NCBI GenBank assembly: GCA_949710005.1 | Contig: OX453276.1 | Location: 14,975,133-15,039,132, forward strand | DNA length: 64,000 bases | Direction of reading: 5' to 3' | Source of the DNA: Ricordea florida | Taxonomy: Eukaryota > Cnidaria > Anthozoa > Corallimorpharia > Ricordeidae | Shown here: piece after piece, positions 27,386 to 51,732 of the stretch | How the letters are laid out: each line of letters begins with the position of its first letter | How positions within the stretch are numbered: the first letter of the stretch is position 1 | Translations under genes and position numbers: made by a program | Notes under the pieces: model-generated | What the model saw: only the letters and a program-made list of their open reading frames with translations | Databases searched by the model: none | What the model was told of the DNA's origin: nothing

Positions 27386-27393
27386 CTTTGATT

Positions 27394-28329: not shown

Positions 28330-29130
28330 GAAACGAAGCTAGAATGCGAACTTCCAAATGACACTAACTACACGAAACATACATCCCGCGATCGACACTC
28401 TCGCCTTCTGATTGGCTTACTATCGAAAACCAACCAATTGCAATGAAGCAGAAAAACCAAATGCAAATTGCACTTGGGATAACAATAGGGCCATTCATTG
28501 CTCTTGCCGCAAATCAGCCGTTACCGATTGCGGTTTTTGTCTTTGATAATCAACAAAATGGCCGAAGATTATCCTGAAACAAGTTTCGTCGAAAACACTC
28601 CAAGCCCTTTCTTCTGTGATAAGTGGAAACTTGCGGAAAGTCCTTTGCACATTCATCTTCGTATCGTCGTCACACAAGAACGAAATGTTCTTCTCAATCG
28701 CTAAAGCGTCGCCGTCGGCGATTGTGGATTTCCGATGAATGTGATGAACAAGATATATTTTGAGTAGCACCAGTATCAAAATTTTGATGCATAAGCTAAT
28801 AAAAGTACATGACTATATTAGATTGTATGGACCTGGAGACCACATATACGGATAAAATTAAAGTTTCTTTATTCACTTGTCTTAGTGCGATTAGTGAAAT
28901 GTGGTCATTTTTCTTGCCCTGTAGGTTGCAGATGATATATTTTCTTAACTGATTATATTCCTTTCTTATTGAACTGAGTTCAAAATGTCAAGACACCTTT
29001 ATATTTCTTTCATGTTTTGGTGATATGATTCTGTTATGGAGAAGAGACAATTTGAAAATACTTAAGCAATGAAGTGCATAGTGATGTTACACACTGGACA
29101 ATTTTAATTAATAATAATCGAATATTTTCT
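28330..29130. other. Intergenic, nothing certain
   Basis: A short plus ORF (ATG 28558, context CAAAATGGCCG) and an overlapping minus ORF have no domain. No repeats recognised. Confidence 0.4.
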
Positions 29131-29245
29131 CAGGATAACCCTTCAGTACATAGTACTGTTATCAACGGGGTCCTGCTAAGAATTAAAAATATTAAGATAT
29201 ATAAAATAAGATACATATTAAAAACCGTTGAAAATAGAATATAAT

Positions 29246-32200
29246 TTACAAGTAATAATCGTGTAAGGCTTTCCTAAATAAGACTCTAGAATTAATGTTT
29301 CTTAAACTTAAAGGCAATAAATTAAAAATCGAGGCACCTAAAAAATAAAAGCTACGGCGTGCAAAATCCAGTCTGACTTTTGGTAGTTTTGCAGTTTTCC
29401 CATTGGTGCGGGTGTTTAAAGCGTTATGATGTAATCGGTGAAAATAGTCTTTAAATGGAAAGCATGCAGTTCCATTAAGGCAGTCAAATACAAAGCAGCA
29501 CGCTCTCTTTTGTAAAAAGTTATCAACAGTTAGAATTCGAAGATCACAGTTCTGCGAACTGCATTTTGGAGAAATAATTTCAAGGCTTCGGGTCTCAATG
29601 GAGCGGATCATGCGTTTGCGGGACTCTGACCATCCAAGACTAGTATAGCCGCAATACGTAAATATTGGCATAATCATCGATTGGTAAATTCGTTGGGCAG
29701 TGAAAGTATCAATACTGGAACGGATGCGCCGTAAGAGGTTCACTCTTCCTGCTGCCTTCTTGTAAATTTTTTGAAAATGAGTTTCAAAATTAAGTGTCGG
29801 GTCCAGATGCACGCCGAGGTACTTATAACATGTAGTGATGTTGATGGGAAAACCGTTGACTGAGAGCTTGACTTGACAGCCTTGAAACAGGTTCAACCGC
29901 TTACCGGTACCAAACAGCATCACCTCAGATTTTCCTTTCTTTAGATTAAAAATAAGTTCATTATCACGAAACCAGTTAGATAGATTATCTAAGTCCTGTG
30001 AAAGACTGCTTTGTATCGCATCAATATCACTTGAGGATGTAAAAATCACCGTATCGTCAGCGTAAGTGATAATCTTACAATGACGAAGCGGACTATGCAC
30101 ATCATTAAAGAAGATGAGAAAAAGGAGGGGCCCAAGAATACTCCCTTGAGGAACTCCAGTGTTAATTGGATTTGGTTCAGAAAGCACACCGTGAAATTGA
30201 ACGATCTGCTTATGATGGAATAAATAATCAGTAAACCACTGAAGTTCCATATCATATACACCAAAACGGGACAGTTTACTCAATAAAATGCAATGACTAA
30301 TGGTATCGAATGCCTTTGATAAGTCAATAAAAACTGCTCCTGTCGCCTTTCCACTATCGGCCTCCTTTCTGATGAGATCAGTGAAGTAAGTAACAGCTAG
30401 TTCCGTTGAGCGGTTCGGACGGAAACCAAATTGGTACTCAAAAAGTAGATTATGACGCTCTAAATGAGCCATCAGCTGCTTATAGACTATCCTTTCCAAG
30501 ATCTTTGACAAAGTAGGGAGAATTGAGATAGGCCTGTAATTGTCAACCTCAGCCAGAGACCCTGATTTGTATAGAGGGATCACCTTTGCCACTTTCCACT
30601 CACTAGGCACAACTCCAGTTTTTAGAGATAAATTGATGATAAATGTCAAAGGCGTGGTTAAAACATAGGCAGCGTCTTTGAGCAGTCCCGGGGGGAAATT
30701 ATCCAGTCCAGACGCTTTTTTCCGCTTAAGATTTTTTAGCTCCTTAAGAATGTCTGATTCTTTCACAGCTTTAAAAGTAAACTGACTTCCCGTGAATTGC
30801 TTGGGAAGATTTTCTTCAGCAGGTTTGCTCCAGACAAAGTCACGGAGTAAGATTGATTTCCCTTTCAGACATCTGGCAATGGAACTGAAATATTCGCAGA
30901 AGCTATTTGCAATGAAGCTTTTGTCAGTTGACTTCGATCCATTTGTCACAAACGCCGAACCTTGATCAGAAGGCGACTTGGTAGGATAGAGTTTCTTGAT
31001 GGCTGCCCAAAATTTATCCGGAGAGTCAGCACAATCTTTAAGAAGATCGCGATGATATCTGCTTTTGCTTTTTTTAACAAGGCCAGAAACTCTGTTGCGT
31101 TGCCATTTATAAGAAGACCAATCGTTTTCTTGATTAGTACGACGGGCTTTCCTGAGCAAACCATCCCTGAGATTCATCTCTTTTTTGACATCCGGAGTCA
31201 GCCAAGGACATAGTCGGCCTTTGACCTTCTTTAAGATTAGAGGAGCGTGCTTGTCGATACACTGTTGCAGTATGTCACGAAAAGAGGCCCATGCCTCGCT
31301 TATGCTGACAGATGAATAAACTTCTTCAAAATTCGCAGAATTTAGCTCTTCGCAAAATGGCTTGGGGTCATAGTTAGCAAAATTCCAGCAAGTAATGATT
31401 CGCGGATTGAACTTAGCATTGTTTAGCTTGCGAGCACATCCAATGAGCTCATGATCACTCAGGCTAGCTGGAATTACTTTCACCGAAGAGATGTTATGTG
31501 GTACGTTACTGCAAATAACATCAATTAGGGTCTTGGACTCACGCGTAATTCTCGTGGGGGTAGTAATGAGTTGTTTCAGACCAAAATAGGTGAGAATGGA
31601 TTTCATTTCTTTGTGATCCGAGGACACCAAAAAATTACAGTTAATGTCGCCTAAGAGAATACATTCCTTGTTTTCAGCTGATATTGTCGAAAGCATTGAT
31701 TCAAATTTGCAATTAAAATTTGCGCAGAGATGTTTAGAAGAATCCGGAGGGCGGTAAATAATTCCAACTAGAAAACTTTTGGTTTTAGGAAATAAAATTT
31801 CAATCCAAATGCATTCAATATCCTCTTGCTCGAGATCCATTCGTCTTTGAAAGGGAATAGATAAAGAAATATAAACACCAACACCTCCACCTTGACCAGA
31901 AGCCCTTGACTTTGCAATAAACGTATAACCTTCAATTTGAACCTCGGCTTCGCTTTTGGTGGATAAATGTGTTTCACTGACCGAAAAGATGTGTATGTTC
32001 CTAGAGCCATCCAGGATTTGACAGATGATAGTTTTGTTTGCCAATAAACCTCTAATATTTTGATGCAGAATTTTAAGGCCCTTTTTAGAGAGAAGCTCGC
32101 TAAGTTCGGGGATGACATATCGTTGAGCATCTTCTTGTTGATCTTGGTCAGCTCCATCTTGGGTGTTGTTGTTAAACAGACAAGAATTGCAGATGACTCC

Positions 32201-32458
32201 GCTATCATCGGAGCAGAAGCATTTCAGGTGAAACTTTAAATGACATTGCGAACAAGCCATCCTGCTTTGTCTTTTCTTCAAAGCCTTTAAGCACGAACCA
32301 CACCTATCAATCGGTCCAGGACAAGTTTCGATATCGCCTGATAGGAGAAGCAGGAGCTGAATTAGCGAAGTTCTCGATGTTCGATGCCCAATTCCATTTA
32401 TCTGGCGGTAGGACCAAAGCGAAGAGTAGATAAAGGTTTCTTGTAAACCCTGGCATTG
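29246..32458 (-). CDS. LINE endonuclease-reverse transcriptase with PHD-like and 2A-like N terminus
   Basis: The frame opens after TAG at 32459-32461; no ATG is seen before a hydrophobic LLLLLSGDIETCPGP block (32312-32353), so an upstream start may be spliced or lost. Next is a Cys/His cluster (CGSC, CSQCHLKFHLKCF, CNSC), PHD-finger-like. Then an endonuclease (LHQNIRGL, SETHLS, GGGVGVYI, IIYRPPDSS, LGDINCNF, SDHELI), and a reverse transcriptase (KVIPLYKSG, NYRPISILP, FIDLSKAFD, GVPQGSILGPLLF, active site YADD at 30053-30064) with a C-terminal thumb and connection region ending LHDYYL. This is the CR1/L2/Jockey layout. Catalytic residues are present, so activity is plausible. Confidence 0.88.
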   Translation of the reverse strand, partial: QCQGLQETFIYSSLWSYRQINGIGHRTSRTSLIQLLLLLSGDIETCPGPIDRCGSCLKALKKRQSRMACSQCHLKFHLKCFCSDDSGVICNSCLFNNNTQDGADQDQQEDAQRYVIPELSELLSKKGLKILHQNIRGLLANKTIICQILDGSRNIHIFSVSETHLSTKSEAEVQIEGYTFIAKSRASGQGGGVGVYISLSIPFQRRMDLEQEDIECIWIEILFPKTKSFLVGIIYRPPDSSKHLCANFNCKFESMLSTISAENKECILLGDINCNFLVSSDHKEMKSILTYFGLKQLITTPTRITRESKTLIDVICSNVPHNISSVKVIPASLSDHELIGCARKLNNAKFNPRIITCWNFANYDPKPFCEELNSANFEEVYSSVSISEAWASFRDILQQCIDKHAPLILKKVKGRLCPWLTPDVKKEMNLRDGLLRKARRTNQENDWSSYKWQRNRVSGLVKKSKSRYHRDLLKDCADSPDKFWAAIKKLYPTKSPSDQGSAFVTNGSKSTDKSFIANSFCEYFSSIARCLKGKSILLRDFVWSKPAEENLPKQFTGSQFTFKAVKESDILKELKNLKRKKASGLDNFPPGLLKDAAYVLTTPLTFIINLSLKTGVVPSEWKVAKVIPLYKSGSLAEVDNYRPISILPTLSKILERIVYKQLMAHLERHNLLFEYQFGFRPNRSTELAVTYFTDLIRKEADSGKATGAVFIDLSKAFDTISHCILLSKLSRFGVYDMELQWFTDYLFHHKQIVQFHGVLSEPNPINTGVPQGSILGPLLFLIFFNDVHSPLRHCKIITYADDTVIFTSSSDIDAIQSSLSQDLDNLSNWFRDNELIFNLKKGKSEVMLFGTGKRLNLFQGCQVKLSVNGFPINITTCYKYLGVHLDPTLNFETHFQKIYKKAAGRVNLLRRIRSSIDTFTAQRIYQSMIMPIFTYCGYTSLGWSESRKRMIRSIETRSLEIISPKCSSQNCDLRILTVDNFLQKRACCFVFDCLNGTACFPFKDYFHRLHHNALNTRTNGKTAKLPKVRLDFARRSFYFLGASIFNLLPLSLRNINSRVLFRKALHDYYL

Positions 32459-32560
32459 CTATATCGTATAGTACGTTTAAACTGCAGAAGGCTTGCTTTT
32501 TTATGTAGAAAATAGCAAAAGTGAACAGAGCGAAATAGCACACAACCGCTCGTAACGACG

Positions 32561-32585
32561 CCATACTGCAAAAGATGCAGTATGG
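32561..32585. other. Perfect 10-bp hairpin upstream of LINE ORF
   Basis: CCATACTGCA pairs with TGCAGTATGG across a 5-nt loop. Lies in the presumed 5' leader of the LINE. Confidence 0.7.
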
Positions 32586-32590
32586 CATCG

Positions 32591-32622
32591 TAGTAAGAAT
32601 TCTAAGAATAGAATTCTTACTA
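32591..32622. other. Perfect 13-bp hairpin upstream of LINE ORF
   Basis: TAGTAAGAATTCT pairs with AGAATTCTTACTA across a 6-nt loop, only 5 nt from the previous hairpin. Confidence 0.75.
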
Positions 32623-32649
32623 TTCCTGTTATATAATAATAAATAGTCA

Positions 32650-32880
32650 TTTATGGGAACCAAAACACAACCATTAATTTAGAGAATGTTTAATCTCCAT
32701 TTCAGGAACTTAAATGGCTTCAGGTGTATAATGTATGTTTCAGGGGCACTTAAACCCCACTATGACAATAGCATTGATTTAAGTGATGTTTTAAACAATT
32801 AAACTAGACTTAAATGTAGACCCAAGTTCTAGGGTTGTTTAATGCAACTTAAATGTGATTAAAATGTGGCTTTGGGTCTA
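32650..32880. repeat. TTTAAG/CTTAAA-rich low-complexity block
   Basis: Same hexamer style as 27600-27850; the two blocks bracket the LINE and the coiled-coil ORF. Confidence 0.35.
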
Positions 32881-32988
32881 GTGTGAGTCACTGTCAATTT
32901 CTTTGCCGGCGGGATACCTGGACAGAAGACAGGATTATATCAGTGGACATAAAGAATGGGCAGAATCGAAGACAAGAAACGACATAAT

Positions 32989-34570
32989 TTATAAACTTAT
33001 ATTTTGAAAGCTTGCTGATTCGCGGTTATAAGAAAACATGCCTTTTGCAGGCCTTTTTAGATAGAAATTGTACCTGTTCATCGTTGTCGACAGCTGTTCA
33101 ATTTTTCTTAGCAGAGGATGGCATATTGAACAGAGTACATGGGAGGTCGATCGGCGCTGCAAGCAATCTTCGTGGAACGAATGCCCACAGTTCAACCTCA
33201 CATATTCTTCAAGATTGTCCTGCACCAAACACGTTTTCAAGTCACAAGCAACCAAAGGGTCTGGTTCACTACCAGCAAAAGAGTATCCCATAGGCAAACA
33301 TCTTTGGTCCATGGTTGCGTCAAGGCCAGGGAAATAATATGGCTGTAAAAAGGTAAATTTGAATTTAGCTTGTAAAGTTTTAAAAGCTTATATCTTAGAA
33401 TGTTTGTTAGTCTTCTCAAGTTCCCCCTTTATTTAATTTTAAACAGATTGCCTACTATTGTGGGGGACTTTATATCAGCATTGTTTGTTCAAATTAATTA
33501 TTTTGGCATATAATACCGATGCCACCAGCTTATCTCCCAAATGGTAATAGGTATAGTGATATAGAGATAGTGAAGGTGTAAAGTTAAATAAAGTGGAAAT
33601 TTTTGCTCTGAACTGAAGGTTTACCCTGGTATTTTCGTGATCCGTTTGAATCTTTCATGGTTTGTCCCATAGTGGACCAGACACGTGCAAATAGGTCAAT
33701 AAGAAACTGTGCGGCTTTCAGGGCTAGCTCTGTTTGGTCTGCTTGTCCTTTACCATGCTGATATGCTGGCAAAAACCACTCTTCAAACTCAATTTCGAAT
33801 CTTCTTCCACTGAGGGCATGGGCAGTTGTACTTATTAGCTTTGGAGGAGCTGTCATAGGTACACACCAGTAATATAATGATTAATAACCAAAAATTTATC
33901 ACAAAACATACAACTTTACTAGTTCTCATTTTTCACAACAATTTGCATTGACACCAAATGACAGAGGATAAATATGTGTCTTCGTGGATTTGCTCTTTCA
34001 AACAAATCAGCAGTGTTAGTGTGATATCTTTTCTAAACTTGTGATATGTAGTTTCAGCCTTGATATGATGTGATGAAAAATACATTTTTACCTTCTTAAT
34101 ACAGAGTGAAGAATCTCAATCTTCTTTTCAGTGAGAACCTGTTAATAGGTCTGGAACCTGTCTGCCAATTCTGGATTATCTGATAGGTGGAACAACAGAT
34201 CACTTAGCTGGCAGAGGGTTCCTTTGTTATAATTTCTGCGGTTGAAATTTATGAAAAGCATTGCAACTCGCATCATTGCATGTAACCACATGTTGAAATT
34301 TCCACCACGAAAAATGGCAGGGTAGAAAAAAAAATTGAGACAACAGAGTTCATCAAGAAGGTAAAACAGCATGATGTACTGTGGGTCTTTGCACTGGCCA
34401 AACAGTTCAAGCACCATGTCTCTTACTAGAAGCCAGCCACCAAACGCTGCTGTTGTCACACTTGAAATTTTTTCTGCTCGTGGTTTTTTGGGAACTTTTT
34501 GCCGTGGCCAAAAATCCCCTTGAATAATTTTCAAAGAATGGCCGTGGACTCTTCTGCATCTTAGCCCTTC
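32989..34570 (-). pseudogene. Multi-exon RING-like gene, divergent partner of the ULP1-type gene
   Basis: Three coding blocks on the minus strand. (1) About 34570-34092: a hydrophobic-helical region (GGWLLVRDMVLELFGQ, FRGGNFNMWLHAMMRVA), with an in-frame TAA at 34142-34144 and a donor at 34091. (2) About 33849-33628: APPKLISTTAHALSGRRFE to DSNGSRKYQ, with AG/GT borders. (3) About 33342-32989: PGLDATMDQRC to a RING-like cluster CDLKTC, LNCGHSFHEDC, CSIC. RING fingers bind two zinc ions and usually act as ubiquitin or SUMO ligases; the first pair here is spaced C-x4-C, so it may be degenerate. Phases at the two junctions do not match perfectly, which with the TAA suggests decay. The start lies about 270 nt from the plus-strand gene at 34839. 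Confidence 0.5.
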
Positions 34571-34838
34571 TCAGGAATTCACCGCCGGACGTCTATGACG
34601 TCACGCAAGTAATTACATTAGCGACACATTGGTCTGTCAACAATAGCGCTAAGCTCGTTATAAGAAAGTGTTAAAATGTAACAGTATCAACAACCTCAAT
34701 ATCAGCGATCTCTGCGGTGAAATTTGCCATCCGGACACACCAAAGACGCTTTGAATCGCTCTGCTAGAGAAACAACTTGAGGATTACCGTGCTAAAGTAC
34801 GGGAAATTGAGAGTTAAATTGTAGCAGCTACTTTGGAG
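34571..34838. promoter_or_regulatory. Putative bidirectional promoter region
   Basis: This gap of about 270 bp separates the 5' ends of the minus-strand RING-like gene and the plus-strand ULP1-type gene. It contains TGACGTCA-like sequence (TATGACGTCACGC at about 34597). No TATA box is clear. Promoter function is inferred from gene layout. Confidence 0.35.
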
Positions 34839-35611
34839 ATGCCCCCAAACACACCCGTGCAAAACGAAGTCCAGTTGCACAAGATCGCGTCTTGTACTTC
34901 GCTTGGACCGATCTCCAAAAAGAGACAGATGAAAGCAGCATGTAGTGCTGCATTTCATGAAATAAATAGTACGTTTCACTGCAGTCGCGGAAGTTTGGGG
35001 GCCGTCCTGGGCTATGGATTTATTTACGGCAATCAAGAGAAACAGATGATGGTGAGAGCAACGATTTCCGAAGCTGTTGAGATAGTTTTGGAAAGCAAGG
35101 GATTGGCAAGCGCGTTAGATCTAGCGTTGACAACCGAACTAAAGCAGAAGCGAGAAGCTGTCACGCGAATCCCCGATTGGGTCCAGCTGTACATCAAACT
35201 GGAAACGAAATTACCAGATGACGGCTGGCAGACTATTCTAAACTTTCTAAATCTCGGTAGAAGTGGGGTGAGTATTGTAATCTTGTTCCATAAGCTAGTG
35301 CCTTTTTTAATATTTAATGTTATAAAGTTTTAAAATTTTTTTAACGTGAAAACTTAGGCTTTCACCATATAATGGTCACAGTGACAGTCTATAGTCTCCC
35401 ACCCAGTCTTTATTTTGGTGGTCATGCATCGCCTCATCACACAAAAAGTTACTCCTGAATCATTCTGTTACTGGGACTGAGCCAGTCGCAGGTAACCCTG
35501 AGACAGTTGAGCTAAATCCACTTGTTGAATCTGTGACAGCTTGACATGCATAATGTTATTTTTATGGTGCAGATGGAGAATAGGTCGAAGTGACAGGTCG
35601 AACATGACTAC

Positions 35612-35685
35612 CGCAGGAAATTCCAGCTTATGTTCATACATTACTGCTAACCCCCTCCCCCTAGGAGTTTCCAATACCTAATGTA
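35612..35685. repeat. Dispersed repeat copy
   Basis: Shares GGAAATTCCAG-C-TAT-TTCATA and a C-rich/TTTCCAAT core with 25650-25735. In the first intron of the ULP1-type gene. Confidence 0.5.
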
Positions 35686-36205
35686 CTCTCCAGGGGGTGG
35701 GTACAGATTTTTTCTAGAACTACACATTGCAACATTGCGGTGATCTGTTTGTGCTTTGAAACCTACGTTGTTCAGTGAAACGAAATTATTTACGGTGTTG
35801 CGACACCAGCAGCATTGCCACAGTTTATATGCGCCCCAATGTTGCCTTCAGCAATACAAGCTAGTTGACTGCCATTTTGTCACCACCTACAGATTGCTGG
35901 AAGTATTCAGGTCATCAGAAAATTTAAGTTGTAAGTCCTTTGGTGATATTCAACAGTCTTAGGTAAACTTTGGAAGTCTTTGGGTTATCTTTGGAAATTT
36001 CTGCACTATCTCCTGTGACCTTTGCACTTTTTACGCTGATGTACATTGCACACGAAATGAGCTGAAAAATGGACTGCTATTAGTCAACCAGAATCAATTT
36101 TTCATGTGTATTATTACATCAGCCTAGACTGTTTCACCCCCACTAGGGGACTTAAGTTTATTTAAAGGCTGTTTACTTCTGTATCTCATAACGTCTGTAT
36201 AGCTA

Positions 36206-36708
36206 CAGCAGAATCCCGATTTCTCGAACCTCCACGGGAAACAAAAATTGGTTTGAGAAATCGGGAGTTCAAAAAATTGAAGGTGACATCAATTGAAGCT
36301 AAATTGCTGAGGTATTGTTTTATAAGGGGCAATCAGGCACATTTTCATAGTAACAGATGGTAGATGACAGATCTGTCACTTGCTGTGTAATAAAAATACA
36401 AAATGAGCTAAAATACAACTTTTTCGGAAGGGTTTCTTTGCTTCGAGTCGCTACTGTAACTGGAATCAGCACTAATTGGTTTGAAAATTTTCAAGGTTCG
36501 AGTTATGGAGGGTAACTTTTGTGGGAATTTTTCCCACGGGAGTCGAGAATTGGTTCGAGTTTGTGGGAGTTTCAAATAATTGAGGGTTCGAGAAATCGGG
36601 GGTAAAATTACATTGTTAGAGTTCAGGCAAATCCAAGGGAAACGACAACTGGTTCGAGTTATCAGGAGGTTCGAGAAACCGAGGGCTCGAGAAATTGGGA
36701 TTCCACTG
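36206..36708. mobile_element. Tigger/pogo-like MITE, about 503 bp
   Basis: Left end CAGCAGAATCCCGATTTCTC and right end, reversed, CAGTGGAATCCCAATTTCTC are terminal repeats, flanked by TA on each side (36204-36205, 36709-36710). The interior repeats TTCGAGAAATCGGG-type motifs. TA targets and CAGTGGAATCCC-style ends fit pogo/Tigger-derived non-autonomous elements. It lies in the first intron of the ULP1-type gene. Confidence 0.75.
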
Positions 36709-39700
36709 TACATGTACAGCCTCTTTGGGCCTTCTTTGTGGTAAATGTATAGGCAAATATTCAGTTTATGATATTATGGTAATATATCTTGAGTTAATTT
36801 ATTAAGAGACATGTTATACAATGTTTTCATATTTCTGTTTGTCAAAAAAGAGAGATGGTGATCTGCAATGCCTCCTCACAAAGAACATGGTAAAGGCCTG
36901 TAAGACAATGGTATTTTCCTTAATCCAGTCGGTGGTTAAAATCAGGGCTCTGGAACCTGAAAGTGGAATCACAGGATATTCTGTTGGTCTGACTGCAGCT
37001 CTAATTTGGGCAATCCGTGAAGCCAGGCTACATAATTCCACAAGACCAACAATGGTGTTTAATGTTAAGCTAGATGGACGCCCTTTTGCAGGTACTGAGA
37101 TGGCCATTACAACTGTAAATTAAGTGTATGCTATATTTTGGTGTTAATTTTGGGTTATATGCTTTTGAGACCACATGTTGTCAGTTTTTCATAATAATTT
37201 ATTAAATTGTGGCAATCAAAAACGATGCTCTTGAAAATTACAACTAGTCAGTGGTTGATTTTGGCCAGAAAGTTAATGCAAAGATTCATTCTGGCCAAAC
37301 TGAGTTTTTAAAATAATGAGCACCTCCCATTCACCTTACGGTGGTATAACTTACTTAATCAACTCGTTTGATTTATCCAATTTCTTGAGTTTTTAAAATA
37401 ATGGCCTACCTAGTGCCTTGTTTGTGAAACTTGCACCTTTGTACTTCCTCAGTAATTCAGAATATAGCATTGTCTTTACTACAATGTGATGAAACTGACT
37501 GCATGTGGTTCAGTGGATGATGCATAAAGAGATCGACAATAGAAATGCGAAGATTGCCTCTAATAGTGGTGGAATTTGTGTCAGAATTTTACTTAGTTTT
37601 GAACAATGGCAGCATTTATTTGCGTGGCGCCTGGTATGGACAGGCAAAATGATTACAAAATATAACAATTTTTTATGGCCAATTTGAAATGAAATAATGT
37701 ACTGTGTTATGATTTTCAGCTTGTTCTGCCTAGTTTTCAGGAGATGTTATATAATTAATTAATATGAATTCATAATGTTGTCTCAAAAACAAGCCTCTGA
37801 TGCGAAATATATTTTCTTCCAACTAGCTGTCAATGTAATGCTGTACTGGCATCTCAAAATCTCAATTTATAGTATTTGCTATAAACAAAAATCCCACTAT
37901 CTCTTTTGTGACTAAAAATGACATACATCTAGTTCTTTTTTTATTAACTACTTACTATGTAACAGGTAAAGATCAAGTTTCTGTGGGAGTCGTTGCAGTT
38001 AATTTTGAACATGCCAGTTCTGAGAGTTCCAGTTCAGTATATCCATTGGCCATTGGAAACTGCAAAGAGAATAGGTGAGTAACTGAGTTGAAAATAAATA
38101 TCCTTGATAATATTATCAGCTAAGCTTCTTTTAACTTTCAACAAGATGCACTATAAATCATTCATTAGGAGAATTCAGGTAAACAGCCCATTCTTTTGTT
38201 GAAAATATATCAAGTTAATAGATTTTTTTAATTTTTGTACAGTATTATTCAGTAAGAGTTGTGATTTGCGAAGGAAATAGTCAGCTCTTTATGAGGCAAA
38301 CATTAAGTGGTGAGGGTATTGCTTTCTAATATTAGTTTTGTTATGTAGGCTACCACTTATGAAATTTGTCAATGCTAATAAAATTGAATGATAAGTTTCA
38401 ATGATGGTTTTATCTTGACAGGGAAGAATTGCCAAAGCTCATTAGGAGATTGAATGAGGAAAAGAATGTCGTCAAAGAGAGGGGTATATCAGTAGATGGT
38501 CAATACTACAAGGCCAAGTTTGTTGGTATGTTTTCAGTGCTGTTTCTTAACAGTAAAATAATTTTACAATTATTGTACTTTTGCTAACTGTTCAGGCTGT
38601 ATTGGAGAATTAGGGTACAATTTTTTTACTGAGTTTACGGACTGAGCCAAACCATATGCTTTTCAAATAATTTCATATCATATATATATTAAGACTTTTA
38701 AAACTCTTAAATTACCTGTTTTAGTCACACTGGATTACAAAGCACTGTTATTGTTGATACGAAAGAATTTGACAGACAATGGAGAAGATGTCAAAGTGGA
38801 GATGTTGGGAGGAAAAGGGTTTAATGTGGAAGGCTGTGTTTTCTGCACAGCTTTGAGGGTATAAGTTGGAGCCAAGTTTGTCCATCTCTAGTTCCCACCT
38901 GTCTTAAAGCACAAGCACAAAATGCCAATTCCCACTTGAATAGTGAAATAAATACAAGTACATTAGAATAGAAAAAATGGTTTTTTATGTGTACTTAATG
39001 CTTGTGCTTATCTTTTGCTTATCACACAAACAGGAACCCTGAAATGTTCATTTATTATAACATTTGGCTAAGTGCTTAGAGCAGCTTGTATTGTGGCCTG
39101 AGTTGAATGCTGGGGCTGATTATACCATATGTGGGGTCCATTGTGTTACATGTTCAAGTGTTGTAGGCTTCAGTTTCGTGTGGTCACTTTATGGTCTCAT
39201 CTCAGAAAACAGACAGTGCAGACATTTGTACATGCTTTCCATAGTTACGATTACCTTATGCATATTTTCAGTCATTGTCCATACTCCGTCAACATTTCGG
39301 CTTAGCACTGACCAAGCATCACCCTTGAGAAGCATTGGCAAAATTTTATTTCTCCAAAGGCCTGTTTCACAAAATTTGTTCCCCATTTAATGGGCTAAAT
39401 AAATTTTCATGAAGTCAACTTGGCTACTTCTGCTCTCTGTTGTGACTCAATCTATTATATAAATGTTTTTGTCCAAAACATTCTAATCGAGCATGGCAGA
39501 TTTGTACAAACCATGCATACATGAGGCCACTGCTAAGCACAGTCAGTTGCTGGTAGCTCTAAAAAATTCACAATATTGTTACCCCAGCAGTTTTGAATGA
39601 AGCATTAACTTTAATATGCTTTAATGTGCTTTTCCTGCAGGCTTGCAAAGAGCATTTGTCTGGGAGATTTGATGAAGCCTGTCTTACCTGCTTGCAATCG

Positions 39701-40879
39701 AAAGCCAACATTGGAAAGTGAGCAGAAAATACATATTTCATAGATATCATCATCATCATTATTATTTAGTTAGATATGTATGACAAATGTCTATTGCTGT
39801 CTTGGCTTTTTGTGATTGAGTTAATTCTTTTCTTAGAAGCTTTGAAAATCATGTGTTCTCAAGTTTCAGTGTTCAGTCCTTATATTGTTTCCCAGCCTTG
39901 TCCGTCCTACACTGTACAGCTGTACAGATGAATGTATAGGTACCAAAGGGACACACAAAGTGTCCATATCATCTGAGTGGGTGTTTTTAATAATTGCAGT
40001 GTAAACATCACAGACCCATGTTTTATGGACACAAATACTTAAAGCAATCCATACAAGTTAATGGCAACAGAATGATTTTTAATGTGTAATTTGAGTTCAA
40101 ACTGAAGATCTCCTCATGGGTGTCTTGAAAATTAAGACGCTACGGCCTAAGACCTCGAAAATTAAGACCATGAAAAAAAAAGACCTCGTAGGTGCCGAGT
40201 ATATATTGACCGGTCACAACTACAAAATGGAAGTCCTCACCATAACATTTTTAAATAGATGCTGTATGATAAGAAGAAAACCACTCGATCACAGAAAAAA
40301 GTGCACAATGATCACATGCACAGCATTCATTTGTAAATCTGGCCATAGTTATGATCGAGGCAACTCAAGTGCAAAAATTGATCATTTGTAACTGACTGCT
40401 TTCTGAAAGCTGGTGTAAGATGGAATACAGAATACAGACATTACTATTGCCAGTTTGCAAGATGATGGCTGCGATCGCTGTGCACTTTCTTCATGATTGA
40501 GCAGTCTTTTGCAAATCTTGCTGTGTCGATATTAATGAGGGGGAAATGGTATATTTGTAGTATTATGGTCATTGATTTTTATTATCATAAGAGTTTTTAC
40601 TTGATGAAGAGCTGTGTCATATACAGCTCTGCTCCCTTCACCAGGAAATGAGAAACACTGAGCAGCTGCCTGGCTCTCTTGGGTTGTTTGCACACCGTGT
40701 TGGTACTCTCAAGACTTGCAGTGAAGCTGTTGCAATGTATGGCCCTGAAAATACCAGATATTTTGATCGCATCCAAGTGAAATTGCGCACAGGTCAACAA
40801 ACTGCAGTCACAAAGAGTAATATTCGAGTGAGCTCTATGTCCGGTAAGAGAAAATCATAGTTATATACTGACACCCTGG

Positions 40880-40905
40880 GGTATGGAGGGGGGGGGGGGG
40901 GGGGC
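40880..40905. repeat. Long G homopolymer
   Basis: A run of about 18 G in an intron; a likely sequencing and replication trouble spot. Confidence 0.8.
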
Positions 40906-43754
40906 TCCATATTATGGACTATACAGGGAGACTCTGCGCTATAGTGGTACCTTTCTCAGTCTGGAGGTATATAAAAGGGTAGGGATTTCATGAGTTGAAG
41001 TATAGAAAAAGGCTCTGAAAACTTTCATTTATCTATTTAAAAAGGCGCTTCAACATTGCTCTGAGCACCTACAGTGTAGCTGGTAGATGTGTGTAACTGG
41101 TGCCATTTTCTCAGGAAGTTAGAGGGAAGGGGTACCTTTTCCTGTGTAAGGTATCCTTTTCTGTCGAAACTAGTATATAAAAGGGTCAGGGTTTAGACCT
41201 CGGGACAGATTATCCCCATCTAAAAATTTTTTGGGTCCCCCTGGAGCTACATACATGTTGGTTTTGTTGTGAATATAACTACATTGACATTATTTTCTAG
41301 CTAAATTACCTCTATTAATTGGTACTGATAGACCCATTGTTATCTGAATCTTTGAATCTATAGGGTCTACAGAAAGAGCAATTCTTGCAAACTGTGACAA
41401 AATTGTTCAAGATTCCTTGCCTCTTGAACAAGTGCAAGAACACTATGCACAGATTCCTGCTAGTTGCAGAGAAGTTGTTCTTGGGTTTGTTTCCCATTAT
41501 GAGGACATTATACTGGTAAGAATTTAGTAAGAATGTATCAAATGTAACTTAAAAAAGAAAACAAAGAACAAAGCCAATGCAAACAAGGCTCAAAGATTCA
41601 AACAATGCAACTTGAATAAATGATGACCAAAATCAGTGGGCGATACCCATCCTTTCTCCAAAAATCTCGGTATATAACAAACATATCATAGATCTCACTT
41701 GTTCATTGCAGTCACACATTCGATTTCTGATACATCACCAACTCCTGCATAAATACTGTAAACTCACATTTAAATATTAAATAAGTAGCATCTTAAAAGT
41801 GTTATATTTTAAAGGTAAAGTTTATTGTGTAGGAACTTAATTATTTCATTTCAGGATTGGACTAATAATTGTTATTAGTCTCAAATCCTGCTCACATTTC
41901 AGGAACAAAACTGGTGGGTGACCATGCATGTATGCTCAAAGGTCAGGTTGGCTTTGGGCTTACATTACATTGCAATAATTCTTAGGCATAATTTCTTGGT
42001 TAAGGGGTATCCTATTGGCTCCAGTCTTGAGGTTGAGGTTGGAATAAAGTGCACATATCATTATTTGACCGGCCTATTAACGTGCTTCTCTACAAATATA
42101 TCTTCCCTGTAGTATTTGAAGAAAATATTGGATAGTGGTGTTTTCACAAGAGACTTTGGCTCAAAACAGGAAACTGTTCATTTGGATGGTGCAAAAGGTG
42201 AGAACTTAATTTATTGAAAGTTAACAACTGTTGTAAACACTAAAGATGAGCTATTGTAGCATTGCGATTTAAAACATTAGTTGGATGAACGTACATGACA
42301 AATTCCCCCAAAATAGCAAAAGCATGAACAATAAGATAGACAAACAGCCCAAAATGAACTAGTTAATGGAGTGATCAATGACTGATAAAAGAGCTAACCA
42401 TTAAGCTTGAGTAACCATTAAGCCATGAATAAACAAACTAATAGGCCCACGTCAGCCCTTTGGGTGTCTGCTACTAGTTTCCAACCTTATTATCAAATAA
42501 AAATATGAACAAACAAACAAATGAATTTTTGCCCTTTTATAGAGCTTAAGACGTTCCTTGTTGGGCATTATGACACAACAATTCGAGCTCAGAAGGAAAT
42601 TGAAAAGACATTTTTAGAAAGTGAGCAGAGTTTGTCCTGTCCTAAACCTCCTAAAAAGAAGAGAAAACTGACTGCTACCAAGAAGAAAGATGTGGCCCAA
42701 AATGCCATGACAACCCTGGCTGCTCAGTTACAGGTGGATCATTACAGAAAGGTTAGTCATTCAGCTCTGATGCCATAGGAACAATTAATTTTGTTTGATT
42801 ATGCTAACAGAATTTACAGTGCATGTGACTGTCAATTGGTCAGTGTTGTTCCAAAGTTTTGAAGTAGGAGGCTTAATTGTTAGAGTAGGCTGCCGATTTT
42901 GATAAAAATCTTACTAAAGATTCATTATCAGTCAGTCCAGCAGAGTAGCCCGCTGAGATTATGAAGTAGGTGGTAATTTTTGCATACAGCCGGCTACATT
43001 TGATAATCCTGATTGGTTGAGGTGCATCTACAACAGCTGAGTTTAATAATTAATTATTATTGTGAAATGAGACAAATTAAAGCATTAATTTGAGAAAAAT
43101 AATTTTGAAATGGTGTCCTTTCTATTTGTTAGGAATCTTTTCAATGAGTCAGACATTAGTTAGGTTGGCAGGTACTGCAATGCAAGCTGGTAATATAAAC
43201 CTACTGACTCCTGATTAAAATGGGGAACTTTGGCCAGATTTGAACATTGTATATATAACTTTATTAATGACCAGTCTCAAATAATAATAATTGTGATAAT
43301 TATTCTTATTTATTGAGACTGGTGATAATGTCTTGACCAAATAGCCAACCTTGGCAGGAATAAGAACGAGCTGGAGGGAGCTTTCAGCTGCCTGCACTCC
43401 ATGATGAAAATCATGTTAAACAGACAAAAAACAAAAGGATTTCTCTGATACAGCTGAACTCTAATATTCAGAGAAGTATAACACTCAGCTCAAAAACCGC
43501 TACTGTATGCAGTACATATTTCTTTTTCTTTTTATTGCCTTTTGACCTTAGGTTTTTCAGGAGTGGAAGGACATCAGTCATGTGATTAGAAACAGAGTCT
43601 TTGAAGAGAGTGAAGAAGAACAAATCGACATTCATGATGTCAAGGTAAGATGCAAAATAATAATTAATGGACTGTTTATGATTATCTAAAACCCAGTTAA
43701 CACTATAAGCCAAATATACAAGTTAACAAAGGCTTCTCCCTCTGTCTGTAAGCA

Positions 43755-44058
43755 TACTGTAAAATTCCGATAATAAGCCCCCTCCCCCCCCAAAAAACCC
43801 CCCCCCCCCCGAGTTTCAGGTGCAAATATCCTCGTGATAATAAGCCCTCCTGAATATGAAGCCATGGACTGTTACTGTTTGCTGTTTTGAGCTGTGTCAG
43901 GCTGTTATCTAAGTGTTTTGAGCTGTTTTTATCGACAAGCCAAATCCATTTTGAAATGCAAAATTCCTTCCGATAACAAGCTCCTCTGAAAAAAAGCCCA
44001 GCAAATAAGGCTTTTGAACAAAAATAAGCCCAGGGCTGATATTATCAGAATTTAACGA
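43755..44058. mobile_element. MITE-like inverted repeat in intron
   Basis: TGTAAAATTCCGATAATAAG at the left and the reverse complement of a TTAAATTCTGATAATATC block at the right. Contains C-rich runs. Same style as 23061-23221. It lies 5' of exon 12 of the ULP1-type gene. Confidence 0.55.
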
Positions 44059-45402
44059 GATATCGTTTTTCTTTTGCAGTGCAAGTTGTGGGGTTTCCTT
44101 CTGCGCCATCTTTTTGGAGTGACTCTTGGAATGGGGGATTATGTGCACCTCACAGTGGATCACAGCGCATTGTTGTTTCGACTACATCGATCCTTTCGTC
44201 ATTACTCAAACCAAGGCTTTGAGGCATCACATTAAGACCAGAGGATGCTTTACTCTCGAGCAACAAATCACGATTCCTCGGCAGAAGGCCAGTCCAGTAA
44301 GCTCACCCCCTTTTCATGTGTACTGTGCTGTTACTACTTTACAATGTATTCTGTTACCGTTTCCAGCAAACATTTCACGATGCTATGTTTCTTTGGTTCA
44401 TGGACCTATTAAGTTTTGCAGTCACTTCAATATGCCCCTTATGCTTTCTAGCAAACAAGAGCTTACATGGTGGTACATGTACATGTATACCTCTAAACTA
44501 CTACACAAAATAATAATAAATAATTAAACACTAATATTTTACCTACATTAAAACATTACAGTGACCAACCATTCCCAAAACTAAATTGCTTTGCTCCATC
44601 GCAAGTTCTTAAGACCCCCCCACCTCCCAAGGAACATCTGTAAGTCTGACCTGAGGAGCTGCTGTAAGCAGTAAAAAGTATGAGCAGAACTAGCTTAGAG
44701 GTGGCTCTTCCACAACATCCCGAAAAAGGATGGCATATTGCCCAAAAGAAGGCATCAAAACTGGAGCATAAATTAAGCCGCTAATGAATCCGATCCATGA
44801 GAGATGAGGTGATGTGAAGTTTCTGGGTGGGTGGTTGACCTTTGACCTGCTTAATGTTAAGCTGTCACTGTTGCTTGTGCTGACACTGGCATGAAATGCA
44901 ACCTAGCATATTAAGCAGATGAATGTAGTGCCACAAAAAGTATAAATTAAACCCTCAGTGTAGTAAAATTATGGCCCAGTAAAACAACTATATAAAGTAA
45001 GCGAACGTCTGGTGATGTAGTGAAATTGTCTTGTTGATGCAACTAAACTGGTGTCCAAAAAATTACACTTAAGCCTACAAGTCCTGCATTTCACATCTGG
45101 CCTTCATCTCATAAATTAGAACAGCATCAGTCTGTCTAACTGTAAATCATGTCGATTCCAGTCAACCTGTAATGATCATTTGTACAACTCTGTCAATTTG
45201 TTTTAGTCCAGCAAATCCTCACACACTGGTATGCCGAAAGGCTGCTTTGGATCAGGTATCAATTTGTCCAAGCTCAGCAGCGCTTGGTAAAAGGTAAGAG
45301 CAGCTATCATAATATGGTGTTGGCTTAGAAACCTCTGTTATAAAAGCTATCTGCCTCTAAAAAATATCAATAACCACTTTAAGTACAATGGTTCCCCAGT
45401 AC

Positions 45403-45500
45403 AGTCAACTCTCGTAAGCGGACGTCCTTGGGGAATGTGAAAAAAAAGTGTCCGTTAGTAGAGCCGTCTACTTATGAGAATTATTCCCACAAGCGGACAC
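45403..45500. mobile_element. Fragment of a pogo-like terminal repeat
   Basis: Starts CAGTCAACTCTCGTAAGCGG and contains the partly inverted AAGCGGAC/GTCCG motif, as in short CAGT-ended pogo-type repeats. A matching right end was not found, so it is called a fragment. Confidence 0.4.
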
Positions 45501-47004
45501 CAAAGAAAAATAGGGTGGATGTAACTATATAACAATATTATTTCTCTTGGTGGTGCTATATATTTCCAGTCTATCATTATTTAAAGTATTATACTGGCAT
45601 TTCATTACTTTGGCAACTGGCACTAGTACATAACTCTAGTGAATTGCAATCTTTTTAAAATTACTAAAAAGTTTCTGTTGTTTCTAACTGCTTGCTTGCA
45701 GTAACTTTACTTTTTGTTTTATTCAAGGAAAACCATTTGCATTCCGAGGTTGTGGCTGGAAAGGTAAGGCAGTCTGTAGATCTAAGGAGGATGAAGTCTG
45801 GATCAATGTAATTGTGGATCTCTTTGTCAAGCTGTTTGGCAAAGACTATCTTGACTACGTTTACACTAGAGACCATGGCACACAAATTGCAGTATCTTCA
45901 GATCCAAGAGAGACCTATACGTATGATCATGACAAGTGGGAAGCTTCCTTTGAGGAAACCTTCCAAGAAAGAGCTGTTGAGCCAATGCCAGGGTCAGCAG
46001 TTTTATTGAAAGAACTTTCCAACAATGCAAGAACCGTCCAAGAACCGTCGACTGATCTTGATGGTATTACCCCACTTGATACAAGTGCAATGTCTGATGT
46101 TTCAGATGACCCAAGTGAGATTAGCGGAAACACTTCAGAAGCTGACCATGATGACGCTGTGTTAGCAGAGTCTCTTGTTTCCCTGCAGGCAGTGGCCAGT
46201 GTAAGTGATGCCCAAGTTAAAAGAGACGCCACAGCAACATTCTCAGCAATCCACTTACATTATGGACTACCCCTGGAAAGTTGCACCCAATTCCAGCAGT
46301 CATTGACCTTAGTTTTACCAGACCATAAGTCTGCCCTTGTAAACAGCTTGGTTGAGGGAAGAGTAGGTTTTAAAGGAAACAGTCTTATCGACATGGGGGA
46401 TCTTGTTGCTTTGAGAGGCTGTCAACCAACATCACAAGAAAATTATCTAACCAATTTTGTAATTGAAGGATATCTAAGTTTGATTGCAAAAGAAGGCTCC
46501 CTCCAAGGCAAGGAGGTAGAATGGCTTGGATGGGAATGTTTTGAGAAAGCAGTGGGGAGACAGCCAGCTGCAGAAATTCTTAAAAGAAAGGCCCCTCTCT
46601 TGGCACAAGACATCATTCTTGTGCCCTGCAATCCAGGACAAAGTAAGCACTGGTTCCTGATTGCTGTACTTCCAAAGCAGCATCAAATTTTGGTGCTTGA
46701 TAGCTTGGCAGGAGCTTTCATCAAGCCATCTGCTAAGAAGGCTGCTATCAAGATGTGGAATTTGCTGACAGAGATAGACAGCACAATTGAAGCCAGAGAG
46801 TGGAATTTCTTCGGAAACAAACCATCAGACATTCCACAACAGTGCAATGACTATGACTGTGGAGTTTTCCTTTGTGCTTACGCAAAGAATTTGGTACTAG
46901 GATGTCCTATTGCTGGTGACATTCTCACATTCCGAAAATCCATGGTTTTGGAGCTACACGAAGGAAGCCTGCGTTAAGCATACCATCACAACCATTTGCT
47001 ATGA

Positions 47005-48015
47005 AAATAAATAAATAAATAAATAAATATACATTTATATAGCGCCATTTTCCACTAATTGTCCATGGCGCTTTACAATGCTTTAAAATTAAAATCCTAA
47101 TTCTTTAAAAACCTAAAATCCTAAATCCTAAAAGTTAAAATCCTAAGAATTAAATACGCTACATAATACAATTAGGCTACAAATAAAAAGTAAAAACTAC
47201 AAATCAAATGCACGCTTAAAAAGATAAGTCTTAAGATGAGCCTTAAAAACTGCCTCTGATGATGAAAGTCTGATCTGGAGGGGTAGTTTATTCCAGAGCC
47301 TTGGTGCCGCCACGGAAAAAGCCCTTTCACCATACGTTTTAAGATTTGCTCTAGGCTCATCAAGCAACCTCTTGTTTGAAGATCGTAGTATCCGACCAGA
47401 AATGTTAAATCGCAGTAGGTCTCTAATGTAATCAGGGGCCAGTCCATTCAGAGCTTTGTAAGTTAACAACAATATTTTGAAAATAATCCTAAAATGAACT
47501 GGCAACCAATGTAAGCTCCTTAGTATTGGTGTGATGTGTTCATGCCTTCTAGTCAAGGTAACAAGGCGAGCTGCTGAGTTCTGTACAAGCTGAAGTCTAT
47601 TAATCAGATACTTTGGGAGACCGTACAGTAGGGCGTTACAATAGTCCAAACGCGATGTTATGTGAGCGTGAACAATGGTCTCAGTAGTACTCTGGGATAG
47701 GTATCGCCTAATTTTAGCTATACTACGAATGCGGAAAAATGCGCTCTTGCAGATTATTTTAACGTGTTCTTTGAAATCCAAACATTGATCGAATGCAACT
47801 CCTAAATTCCTGGCCTGTTTACTAGACCTGATTACTTCATCACCAACTCGTATATAGTCGAGGGGTGGTCGTGGACGATATTTAGAACTAATAACCAAAA
47901 GTTCAGTCTTATCCCGATTTAACTTAAGTTTGTTGCGCAGCATCCAGTCCCCAATGTCCTTAACACATAATTCTACTGCCATCTTTGAGCTTGATAGATG
48001 ATTAGGGCAATTGGG
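47005..48015 (-). mobile_element. 5'-truncated CR1/L2-type LINE
   Basis: Coding remnant 47197-48015 on the minus strand, then a 3' UTR with AAAATGGCGCTATATAAATG and an (AAAT)n tail on the plus strand at 47005-47029. Tandem tetramer tails without poly-A are typical of CR1/L2 LINEs. 5' truncation is the normal result of incomplete reverse transcription. Confidence 0.8.
47197..48015 (-). pseudogene. LINE reverse transcriptase C-terminal portion
   Basis: The frame reads WMLRNKLKLNRDKTELLVI just after where the YADD box should be, then ARNLGVAFDQCLDFKEHV, SRLDYCNALLYGLPK, LQLVQNSAARLV, LHWLPVHFRI, LTYKALNGLAP and ends in YLFKRAFDL. These are the post-catalytic blocks of CR1-type LINE ORF2. There is no internal stop, but the catalytic palm and endonuclease are missing, so it is inactive. 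Confidence 0.85.
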
Positions 48016-48851
48016 CACCAAATGACCTCAAATTCTCTTGTAGCTCGTCCCTCTCCTTCGCCAACTACCAAAGATGCCATACATGTGGGTTGCTGGCTGC
48101 TCTGGCCTAAACCTCCTCTAGCCCTTGCCTTTGCAAGGGCAATGGCTGAAATTCCACTGAGACGTGTCCCAGCGTCATTACGGGTAGCTACCTCTTGCTC
48201 TCCATTGAAAGATTTGCTTAGTACTAATGGTGTAGCACTGTCATTAAATGCTGCTCTCACCTCTTCCAGGTCATAGCACTTCCATGAAATATGCGTGGCC
48301 ATCCGTTTCCATACCTGTGGTTTCCAGTGGGGTCGTTCAGCGATTCTGTTGACAAATGCGCTTGGCAAACGGGCTAAAAGCAGTTGTAGGTACTGGACGG
48401 AGCAGTCTTATCTTTCCACTCTCGACCATTTTCCTGCGAATACATGAATACGGTAAATACGTGGACGGCAGATGAAATCGATTTCAATGCACAAGTTTCG
48501 AAAAAGCATCCCGTCATAATTTAATACTTCAATGCTACTTATGGATAGGATGTTCAATTGACGATTTAAAAAATATTGTGCACTATGTAAATATAGTTCT
48601 CTATTACCTGATACTTTAGGATGTAATGTCGAGTTGATACTTTCGGTTACACCACTGAGCCACATTTTATAGTCGCGAAGAAAAGAAGGACTTGATGATC
48701 CTCTGTGTGGAAGAGAAACTGGTATCATTCCCTTGTCATCATAGAAATACAGTTGCCTGACTGACCTCACGTTACGGTGCTTCAATGCTCTGTGTTTGAG
48801 CAAGGCTTTCGTGGTGGTGTATTTCGAATCACAGATGTCACAGTGCGTCAT
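48016..48851 (-). pseudogene. C2H2-bearing ORF with a single internal TAA, cut by the LINE
   Basis: ATG at 48849-48851 starts MTHCDICDSKYTTTKALLKH, a C2H2 finger (C-x2-C ... H-x4-H). The same frame continues after TAA at 48408-48410 with LQLLLARLPSAFVNRIAERP, MATHISWKCYDLEEV and a low-complexity Ala/Arg/Gly region until LINE sequence takes over near 48015. I do not recognise the family. The frame over 270 codons with only one stop suggests recent decay or a real stop with a downstream reading artefact. Confidence 0.45.
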
Positions 48852-49035
48852 AAAAGGGGCCTTTTTGCAGTTTGGAAACCTGAACTATCAAAGGCACTAT
48901 CCGTAGAATGTTCTCTTTAAAAAAACAGCCAATCAGAGTATGAGGTTAGGTTGTAACACCCAAGTGCTATAATTGGTGCAATTATGGTGATCATATCGAG
49001 TATCGCCGTTTCTCCAATACACGTAGTGTGGAGAG
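48852..49035. promoter_or_regulatory. Intergenic gap between divergent ORFs
   Basis: About 180 bp between the minus C2H2 ORF and the plus basic ORF at 49036. Could hold a shared promoter; contains ATTGG-type boxes (CAAT-like, about 48930 and 48973). Confidence 0.3.
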
Positions 49036-49299
49036 ATGGATGCAAACGAGGACCAGAGAAATGGTCGAAGGCTTTACTTTAAAGCCCTTCGCAAACGACA
49101 AAAGAGGAAGCGAAAGGAGAGGAAGCGAGAGGAAGAGCGGAGGGCAAGAGAGAAACTACGACGCGAACGATACCAAGCTCTTGTTCAGAACATAAGAAGG
49201 AACATTATTGCAGGGCAGGAACCACGAATCAGTGAAGCGAAAGGTGTGTGTCTTGAAGACGAGGACGCGGTCCCGGAAAAAATTCTGTCGAAAAAGTAG
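49036..49299 (+). CDS. Small highly basic helical protein, unrecognised
   Basis: 87 residues from ATG at 49036: MDANEDQRNGRRLYFKALRK, then a long Lys/Arg/Glu-rich single helix, ending VPEKILSKK. Charge-rich helices of this kind are not diagnostic. It may be a first exon. Downstream to 50,500 only AT-rich sequence was seen. Confidence 0.35.
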   Translation: MDANEDQRNGRRLYFKALRKRQKRKRKERKREEERRAREKLRRERYQALVQNIRRNIIAGQEPRISEAKGVCLEDEDAVPEKILSKK

Positions 49300-50500
49300 T
49301 GAAAGGGGTGGCAACGCAGAATCAAGCGAAAAACGACAGTAAAGGCCACAGCTTTCTGCGCTTATTTCCAAATGAGTAGCAGTAATGATCGCCCTCGAAA
49401 GGGTAATCGGCCAATTCACTAACGATTCATTTCGTTAATGATAAGGAAACATTCTATTTCTCGTTGTAAATCTGCACTACCCGTTAGGAAAACAAGGAAT
49501 ATATCTAAAAATCGTTCTAAAAGCGTGTTTATGCAAACGATAACAAGGATGCATGAATATTCCTCGGTCTAAAAGTGCAATTCTCTGGTAGTTAGCGAAA
49601 CGACCCGTTAGCGAAATGACCGGTAAGCAAGCCGTGAAGGATTTTGACTCAAAGTGTGTTTATACGCAAATGATACACTCGGTTTAATAGCAATTTTTAT
49701 CTTTTTATTAGTTGTAAAGAGTTTGGTAACGGGGCGAGTTCAATCAGTAGTTTTTCGCGATTTCAAATTGCATGTGGCATTTGAGAGTGCAAGAATTTAA
49801 ATACTGCCTTAACATGCTAAAACGCACAAGCTGTCACTTAACTTGGGTTAATTTCAATCACGATGAGGCATTTGTGCATGTAAACGGCGATTTTTGTCTT
49901 TTCTTTAAATTTAGAATCAAGCTGCTGATGCTTGATTCCGGTTTGTTCAAAATTTCACATCTCGAATTTGTGGGCGATAGTGCGTGTTAAGCGTTTTCGA
50001 AAATAAAGTTCTGTTTCATATTGCATGCGTTACAGTTAAATGAAGAAGTTTTTATCCATCTTTATAGTTTAAATATCTTTTTTCAATTAGGAAATAGCGT
50101 GCAGCTTGCTCCAAAAATTCACATTGTGAGGATCAAAGCAACAAGGTTCTCATTCCATCCTTGGAATAATCGTTTCTAGCGCGCAATATTTCGTTTGCTG
50201 AAACAGTCTAATTATCTTATTATCTCGATGATCTTGTCTCACCGAGGTAAGAACTGACCTTATTTTGTTGTAATCACTGTTGAATAAAATGATGTGTGTT
50301 GGATATTTTGACCTTATATAAATCCTCACTCAGTGGTTTGTTACTGCAGCAGCCTATGTTTTTTATCTTGTTGGTTACAAGACCTCAGAAATGTTTGGCG
50401 AGAAAGGCCGCCGAATTGAAAACGTTGTTTAATATGAGCCGAAACAACGGGCCGAAAATCGCAATATGTAAATGGCGGTTCCAGGAAAAAATATTCATGC
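49300..50500. other. Intergenic, no supported gene
   Basis: AT-rich, short ORFs without features. Confidence 0.4.
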
Positions 50501-50519
50501 ACATTTGCAAAGTTAGTCT

Positions 50520-51310: not shown

Positions 51311-51732
51311 TGTATTCATAATTTTTGGCATAGATTTTTAATAGTTTTTTTTTTCCTCCTTTTTCAAGCGAATTAATTGTAAATAGGATTTTAATAGTTA
51401 GCATTGTTGTCTATAGTTATTCAAATAAAGTTGCCATTGTCCTTCTAAAAAGTAAATAAATTCTGATGTTCACAGTCTTGGCTATCCTTCAGTTATTTTA
51501 TTGAATTATTTTTAACTAGTATGAGTGTTTTGACAAGTTCAGATATTTTTATTTAGTGTGGAAATCTCTTGATTGTGTGTGAATAACTACTAGTAACTTG
51601 TATTTTTCAACTAAAGAAAGAAATTCACATGGAAAACTTTTCAAGCACTGGTATATTTAATATCAGGCCTTACATGTTTTAGATGTTTTTAATTTATTAT
51701 TGCTTATTCTTTGTTATTATTTATTCTTTGTT
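51311..51732. other. AT-rich spacer
   Basis: No gene or repeat recognised. Confidence 0.4.

Follow-up and report, generated by a model that had tools for sequence, protein, structure and literature searches.

Two divergent open reading frames (ORFs) stand close together in a stretch of 64,000 nucleotides of the corallimorpharian Ricordea florida (contig OX453276.1; C5:14975133-15039132, hereafter the window), one of them RING-like and on the minus strand, the other on the plus strand and combining transposase-like sequence with a C48 (Ulp1/SENP-like) protease domain. The question raised by this locus is whether a ubiquitin/SUMO ligase and a protease are associated here as a module, as an earlier note on the same DNA had proposed, or whether they are neighbours for another reason. 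Our results favour the latter: with a probability of roughly 0.87, the plus-strand gene encodes the transposase of a 15.9-kb transposon with CATGA..TCATG ends located inside a repeat that bears the RING-like gene, and the transposon is of the DDE cut-and-paste kind, with a C48 tail on its transposase and, in complete relatives, with accessory kinase and C2H2-type genes.

The transposon and its transposase-C48 gene

The 14-exon structure claimed before for the plus-strand gene was borne out: all junctions are GT-AG with consistent phases, and the spliced gene comprises 1126 codons, final stop counted. The last exon matches Peptidase_C48 (PF02902) with an E-value (E) of 1.1e-13 and 52 bits (cut-off 20.7), as well as SENP2/SENP1 (PDB 1tgz; E 1.1e-11), and the complete His-Asp-Gln-Cys set that had been described from the letters alone is found at His1017, Asp1034, Gln1080 and Cys1087, as in C48 peptidases. 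Because an in-frame TAA is present in exon 12, directly behind a motif that two further families conserve, this copy of the transposase is probably not functional.

At the left end, two other loci (L043 and L044) match the window from 34560 onwards and keep in front of that base the 9 bp CATGACGAG, with which the element should begin and which are missing from the window. The full left end of the window family, as read in two other loci, is CATGACGAGCTTAGCCC, identical to that of a second family (family C) over 17 bp. At the right end, ..AAAATATTCATG, the window and a sibling on contig C12 part just afterwards, at 50499-50501 (within 2 bp). The sibling (96-98% identical) includes exon 1, the region of the minus-strand gene and the right terminus, and gave no match for window 35880-48016, which holds most of the transposase gene. 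A look-alike of the terminal repeat at 34649 (2 mismatches in 14) was rejected, being inside the element and in the opposite orientation. The proposal of a large DNA transposon of about 14 kb was therefore right as to the transposon but not as to its limits, which are 34560-50499 (15.9 kb) instead of 32989-46977.

The genome (537.8 Mb in 48 contigs) was searched with both genes, each of which matches exon by exon; the counts are lower bounds: 86 matches to the last transposase exon, 73 to the first twelve exons and 138 to the RING-like gene. Merging at 20 kb rendered 97 transposase loci and 62 RING loci, and ten regions of 20 kb were examined, with set A and family B represented by three each and family C by four. 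The regions of set A are near-identical to each other and contain only a C48-like stretch related to the tail of the transposase. The three copies of family B and the four of family C carry the same transposase-C48 fusion, with ends that begin with CATGACGAG or nearly so. The search for further copies and common ends, which had been suggested as a check, thus uncovered dispersed relatives with terminal inverted repeats, and the transposase is neither single-copy nor devoid of transposon ends.

The copies of family C, on contigs C6, C10, C11 and C12, are 15,699-16,264 bp long, have unrelated flanks and are 99.1-99.99% identical in the main alignments. Their termini are sharp (CATGACGAGCTTAG../..CTAAGCTCGTCATG), with 14-bp terminal repeats CATGACGAGCTTAG, the outermost base being altered at one end of copy C1. 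Copy B2 of family B (15,606 bp) has both ends (CGTGACGAGATTCATG../..ATGAATCTCGTCATG); an exact search for these found one in B3 and neither in B1. Exon by exon, family C is 36-69% identical to the window protein in the matched stretches, and spliced alignment recovers the transposase gene in copies C2 and B2 with an exon structure nearly that of the window (14 exons between B2 and C2; 16 blocks between C2 and the window, two of them probably artefacts). The C48-like tail of C2 scored 16.2 bits with a shortened query, under the Pfam cut-off of 20.7, and shows the motifs NHW, FDD, PSQ and SCG, which appear in B2 as SHW, FDD, PSQ and SCG. Both families have the same gene order, with a minus-strand C2H2-type gene and a plus-strand protein kinase oriented like the transposase; the kinase of C2 matches PF00069 (E 2e-25) and is 37% identical to that of B2 over 331 positions. 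No kinase gene was detected in the window at E 1e-3. Given the in-frame stop, the damage at the left end, the repeat inserted into its second gene and the lack of a kinase, the window transposon appears to be dead or nearly so.

Inside the family C element, the C2 region contains at about 10457-12044 a tandem array with a unit of about 112 bp, whose length seems to be different in copy C4.

The RING sequence as a repeat of its own

The minus-strand RING-like ORF is present, as had been noted, at 32989-33387, but its best model, zf-RING_2, reaches only 22.5 bits (cut-off 27.3), a weak match, and what the window contains is only the 3' part of a longer gene. The gap of about 270 bp between the divergent frames was confirmed, the limit of the RING ORF being 34570 and the ATG of the transposase 34839.

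In other copies the RING repeat is unbroken: the sequence of window 34543-32884 is joined there to that of 27576-27455 and 21195-20767, and the copies extend 5' of the RING gene with conserved sequence absent from the window. Position 20767 is taken as an end of the repeat because the window and four other copies switch to different flanks there. Beyond the transposon, 51447-52400 corresponds to the 5' continuation, and in 11 of the 12 other loci that match it, judged by eye, RING sequence follows on the expected side at no more than 20 kb; the RING repeat therefore stands on both sides of the transposon. Judging by the spacing on contig C3 at 31.13 Mb, about 1.9 kb of the repeat, including the 5' part of the gene, is missing at the junction. 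When this piece was searched for directly, none of the matches scored lay next to the transposon, and between 50499 and 51447 other repeated sequence is found.

A second case of a transposon within RING sequence is the element at C5:18601243-18621795, which was recognized because both the first and the last exon of the transposase match there, and of which the two ends were read. It interrupts a RING coding exon, has ends CATGACAGGCTTTGAGGC../..CTTCTCATG (CATGA..TCATG), and is flanked by a 3-bp duplication, CCC, judged against three uninterrupted copies.

In three other loci (L032, L033 and L041) the RING-like protein forms the C-terminus of a longer protein encoded by several exons. Two pieces upstream of the RING part gave no Pfam match, and the longer protein may itself be transposase-like. 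Two insertions were observed within the RING repeat of the window. The sequence at 21196-27454 (about 6.3 kb) has ends CACGCTGGGGCCAGACCACCCC../..GGGGTGGTCTGGCCCCGGTGTG with ATT on both sides and looks like a second, CACTA-like DNA transposon; that at 27577-32883 (about 5.3 kb) starts with CACAAG and finishes with CTAGTG, has TGA on both sides, and includes a reverse-transcriptase ORF at 29246-32458 with a weak endonuclease match.

Affinities of the transposase

Alignment of the three spliced proteins compared (window, C2 and B2; 46-50% pairwise identity) showed D218, D298, C332-x2-C335, H631-x4-H636 and E656 to be invariant in all three, and of the histidines between D298 and E656 only three are invariant, two of them forming the H-x4-H pair. 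This pattern fits the published signature of the RAG1/Transib/EnSpm (CMCT) group (PMC12730594). According to the residues given for mouse RAG1 (D600, D708, C727/C730, H937/H942 and E962; PMC4914335), the likeness lies in the H-x4-H pair and in the 20 residues from its second histidine to the glutamate, and the difference in the other spacings, with 80 residues instead of 108 from D to D and 34 instead of 19 from the second D to the first C. The ends are CATGA..TCATG in the families read, except for CGTGA at the left of B2 and TATGA in C1, in agreement with the 5'-CA..TG-3' of CMCT elements; PlavakaB, for example, is reported to have CATCA..TGATG ends and duplications of 2 or 3 bp (PMC12730594). 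From these features we infer a DDE transposase of the CMCT type. It differs from known systems of this type in the CATGA..TCATG ends, the fused C48 domain, the kinase and C2H2-type genes and the lack of a Pfam match.

Some KDZ elements contain C48 domains, and the KDZ elements, which are also present in this genome, resemble ours in being large DNA transposons. An affiliation with them, as had been entertained in the earlier note, was not supported: the KDZ profile PF18758 matched none of the three spliced proteins, and none of its 35 matches in the genome lies within 30 kb of the 159 transposase match positions. Duplications of 8 bp are reported for Zisupton, a KDZ element (PMC12730594), as against 3 bp or none here. 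KDZ membership can thus be ruled out as far as the profile allows.

Transposon-borne proteases of the Ulp1/C48 type are likewise described in Ginger1, where Ulp1 is at the C-terminus of the transposase, in Mutator elements with Ulp1 and in Cryptons with C48 (PMC2836005, PMC3212892), a feature that our elements share. The transposase described here gave no integrase, MULE or tyrosine-recombinase match, and no match to rve, the model for the Gypsy-integrase-like core of Ginger1; an ORF of a long terminal repeat (LTR) element in the same window does match rve. A kinase gene beside the transposase is reported in IS3EU transposons of rust fungi (PMC12730594); there it is an alpha-kinase, whereas ours is an ordinary protein kinase (PF00069). 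Viral contigs searched for relatives of the transposase gave no informative result, and searches of an open-access library listed no description of such an element. There is no Pfam model for this transposon lineage, which could correspond to a named Repbase family.

Proposed explanation, alternatives and other features

The arrangement in the window is explained by the absence of about 1.9 kb of the RING repeat and of the first 9 bp of the transposon at the junction, which left the two frames facing each other. The DDE transposase would bind the CATGA ends and cut and paste the element, producing a 3-bp duplication in at least one family, and the C48 tail could strip SUMO or a similar modifier from the transposase itself or from repair proteins at the cut sites, with the kinase and C2H2-type genes of the complete relatives acting as accessory factors. 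That Ulp1 and OTU domains take an active part in transposition was proposed by the authors of the Ginger1 study (PMC2836005).

That a RING ligase and a transposase-protease form instead a module with a shared promoter region, moving or acting together, could be argued from the divergent ORFs about 270 bp apart and from the second transposase locus that adjoins RING sequence. This is extremely improbable in view of the fact that only 2 of the 97 transposase loci, and 3 of the 62 RING loci, are linked within 30 kb, the two transposase loci being the window and C5:18601243-18621795, where the RING exon was split with a target duplication. Moreover, the window RING gene lacks its 5' part, the repeat resumes beyond the transposon, and the window RING protein has no match at E 1e-3 in any of the seven regions searched from families B and C. 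The pair does not recur elsewhere as a linked unit, and a single element comprising both genes was rejected, no set of copies with both genes between one pair of ends having been found. The pair in the window is an accident of nesting and deletion, and annotating it as a regulatory module would be a mistake. A domesticated host gene kept by selection would be in line with the intact C48 residues and the complete exon structure, and is nevertheless very unlikely given the in-frame stop, the damaged left end, the fresh repeat insert and the many dispersed relatives in the genome.

Several observations weigh against the explanation based on a CMCT-type transposon nested in the RING repeat. The right and left ends of the window element have CATGA alone in common, and its own target duplication is not visible. 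Of the seven copies read in families B and C, at least three (B2, C2 and C4; L017/L018, L023/L024 and L027/L028) are within arrays of a satellite of about 600 bp, and there, with neighbouring satellite units taken as the empty site, no target duplication was found and 2 target bp are lost in each case. Compared with the CMCT range of 2 to 5 bp, a duplication, of 3 bp, was thus seen once and none in the three satellite insertions; it is possible either that the families cut the target differently or that the satellite units mislead. The core of the transposase lacks a convincing Pfam or PDB match: outside C48 the best library matches were an immunoglobulin model (E 0.019-0.025) and a chloroplast ATP synthase chain (E 0.06), none of the three spliced proteins matched a Pfam transposase, neither RAG1 nor Transib was matched in the PDB, and PDB searches with the transposase profile and with the H-H-E stretch rendered nothing useful. 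The motif is suggestive and not decisive, because the comparison comprises just three sequences, which are invariant in 271 of the 766 ungapped columns. Finally, three RING-transposase pairs lie within 30 kb as against 0.84 expected by uniform scatter, and within 60 kb (7 of 97 transposase and 8 of 62 RING loci) the pairs are eight against 1.5; both kinds of repeat therefore share neighbourhoods more often than under uniform scatter. The missing Pfam transposase match and the satellite insertions could mean that the transposon belongs to a superfamily other than CMCT, or forms a separate class, with a merely coincidental agreement in the C and H residues; this we regard as unlikely, since the H-x4-H pair stands exactly 20 residues before the E as in RAG1, the ends are CA..TG and one 3-bp duplication was found.

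The elements represent a recently mobile lineage that has kept a Ulp1-type protease on its transposase; a kinase accompanies it in two of the three families read. What may be new is an unclassified lineage with transposase-C48, C2H2-type and kinase genes, as a variant of the Ulp1-carrying transposons. More tentatively, at somewhat less than even odds, it could be an undescribed RAG1/EnSpm-like lineage of about 16 kb in which a fixed set of transposase-protease, C2H2-type and kinase genes would supply the element's own means of modifying proteins so as to steer cutting, repair or silencing; some families would lose 2 bp of target on insertion where others duplicate it, repeatedly in satellite arrays. 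Such elements offer a handle on why unrelated transposons acquired SUMO/ubiquitin proteases, and may extend the group that gave rise to RAG1 by a divergent member.

Features of the window and of related copies (window positions unless a contig is given)
Feature	Position	Strand	Remarks
DNA transposon with transposase-C48 gene	34560-50499	+	15,940 bp as present; first 9 bp missing
Transposase-C48 gene	34839-46977	+	Spliced relatives in families B and C
Exons of the gene	34839-35267, 36851-37091, 37966-38074, 38422-38525, 38725-38858, 39641-39717, 40653-40843, 41364-41515, 42113-42197, 42543-42751, 43552-43644, 44080-44296, 45207-45293, 45728-46977	+	
Candidate catalytic and zinc residues D218, D298, C332, C335, H631, H636, E656	37073-44223	+	Invariant in 3/3 families
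In-frame stop TAA, exon 12	44233-44235	+	
Ulp1/SENP-like C48 domain, His-Asp-Gln-Cys set present	46423-46956	+	Pfam; PDB alignment to SENP2
Repeat inside transposon	47004-48014	-	Listed at 38 further places with 99-100% identity; weakly similar to reverse transcriptase, under the cut-off
Second gene of transposon	48012-48860	-	C2H2-type finger at start (weak, below cut-offs); 40-41% identity to family C
Basic ORF of 87 amino acids	49036-49299	+	In the place of the kinase gene of families B and C; no kinase similarity found
RING repeat end (GACAGGTCTCAAAAACCGC)	20767-21195	-	Same end, different flanks in L035-L038
RING repeat piece	27455-27576	-	Contiguous with 32884 in other copies
3' part of RING repeat gene, cut off at transposon	32884-34559	-	93.6-96.3% DNA identity, six loci, to 34543; by eye to 34559
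5' continuation of RING repeat past transposon	51447-52400	-	52400 is the query end; 12 other loci match
Copy C2 with kinase and C2H2-type gene	C10:15697491-15713190		L023/L024
Copy B2 with kinase and C2H2-type gene			L017/L018

Two transposase-RING pairs on contig C12 (9440292/9479157 and 11568331/11607345) are each about 39 kb apart, and possibly both derive from a segmental duplication. An open frame of 2096 amino acids at C12:9440292 was discarded, the fetched stretch starting with a run of N that had been counted as open. LTR-retrotransposon-like ORFs were also observed in the window at 9077-13162 and 55170-59306, one of 1378 amino acids that matches reverse transcriptase, RNase H and integrase, the other a set broken up into several ORFs.

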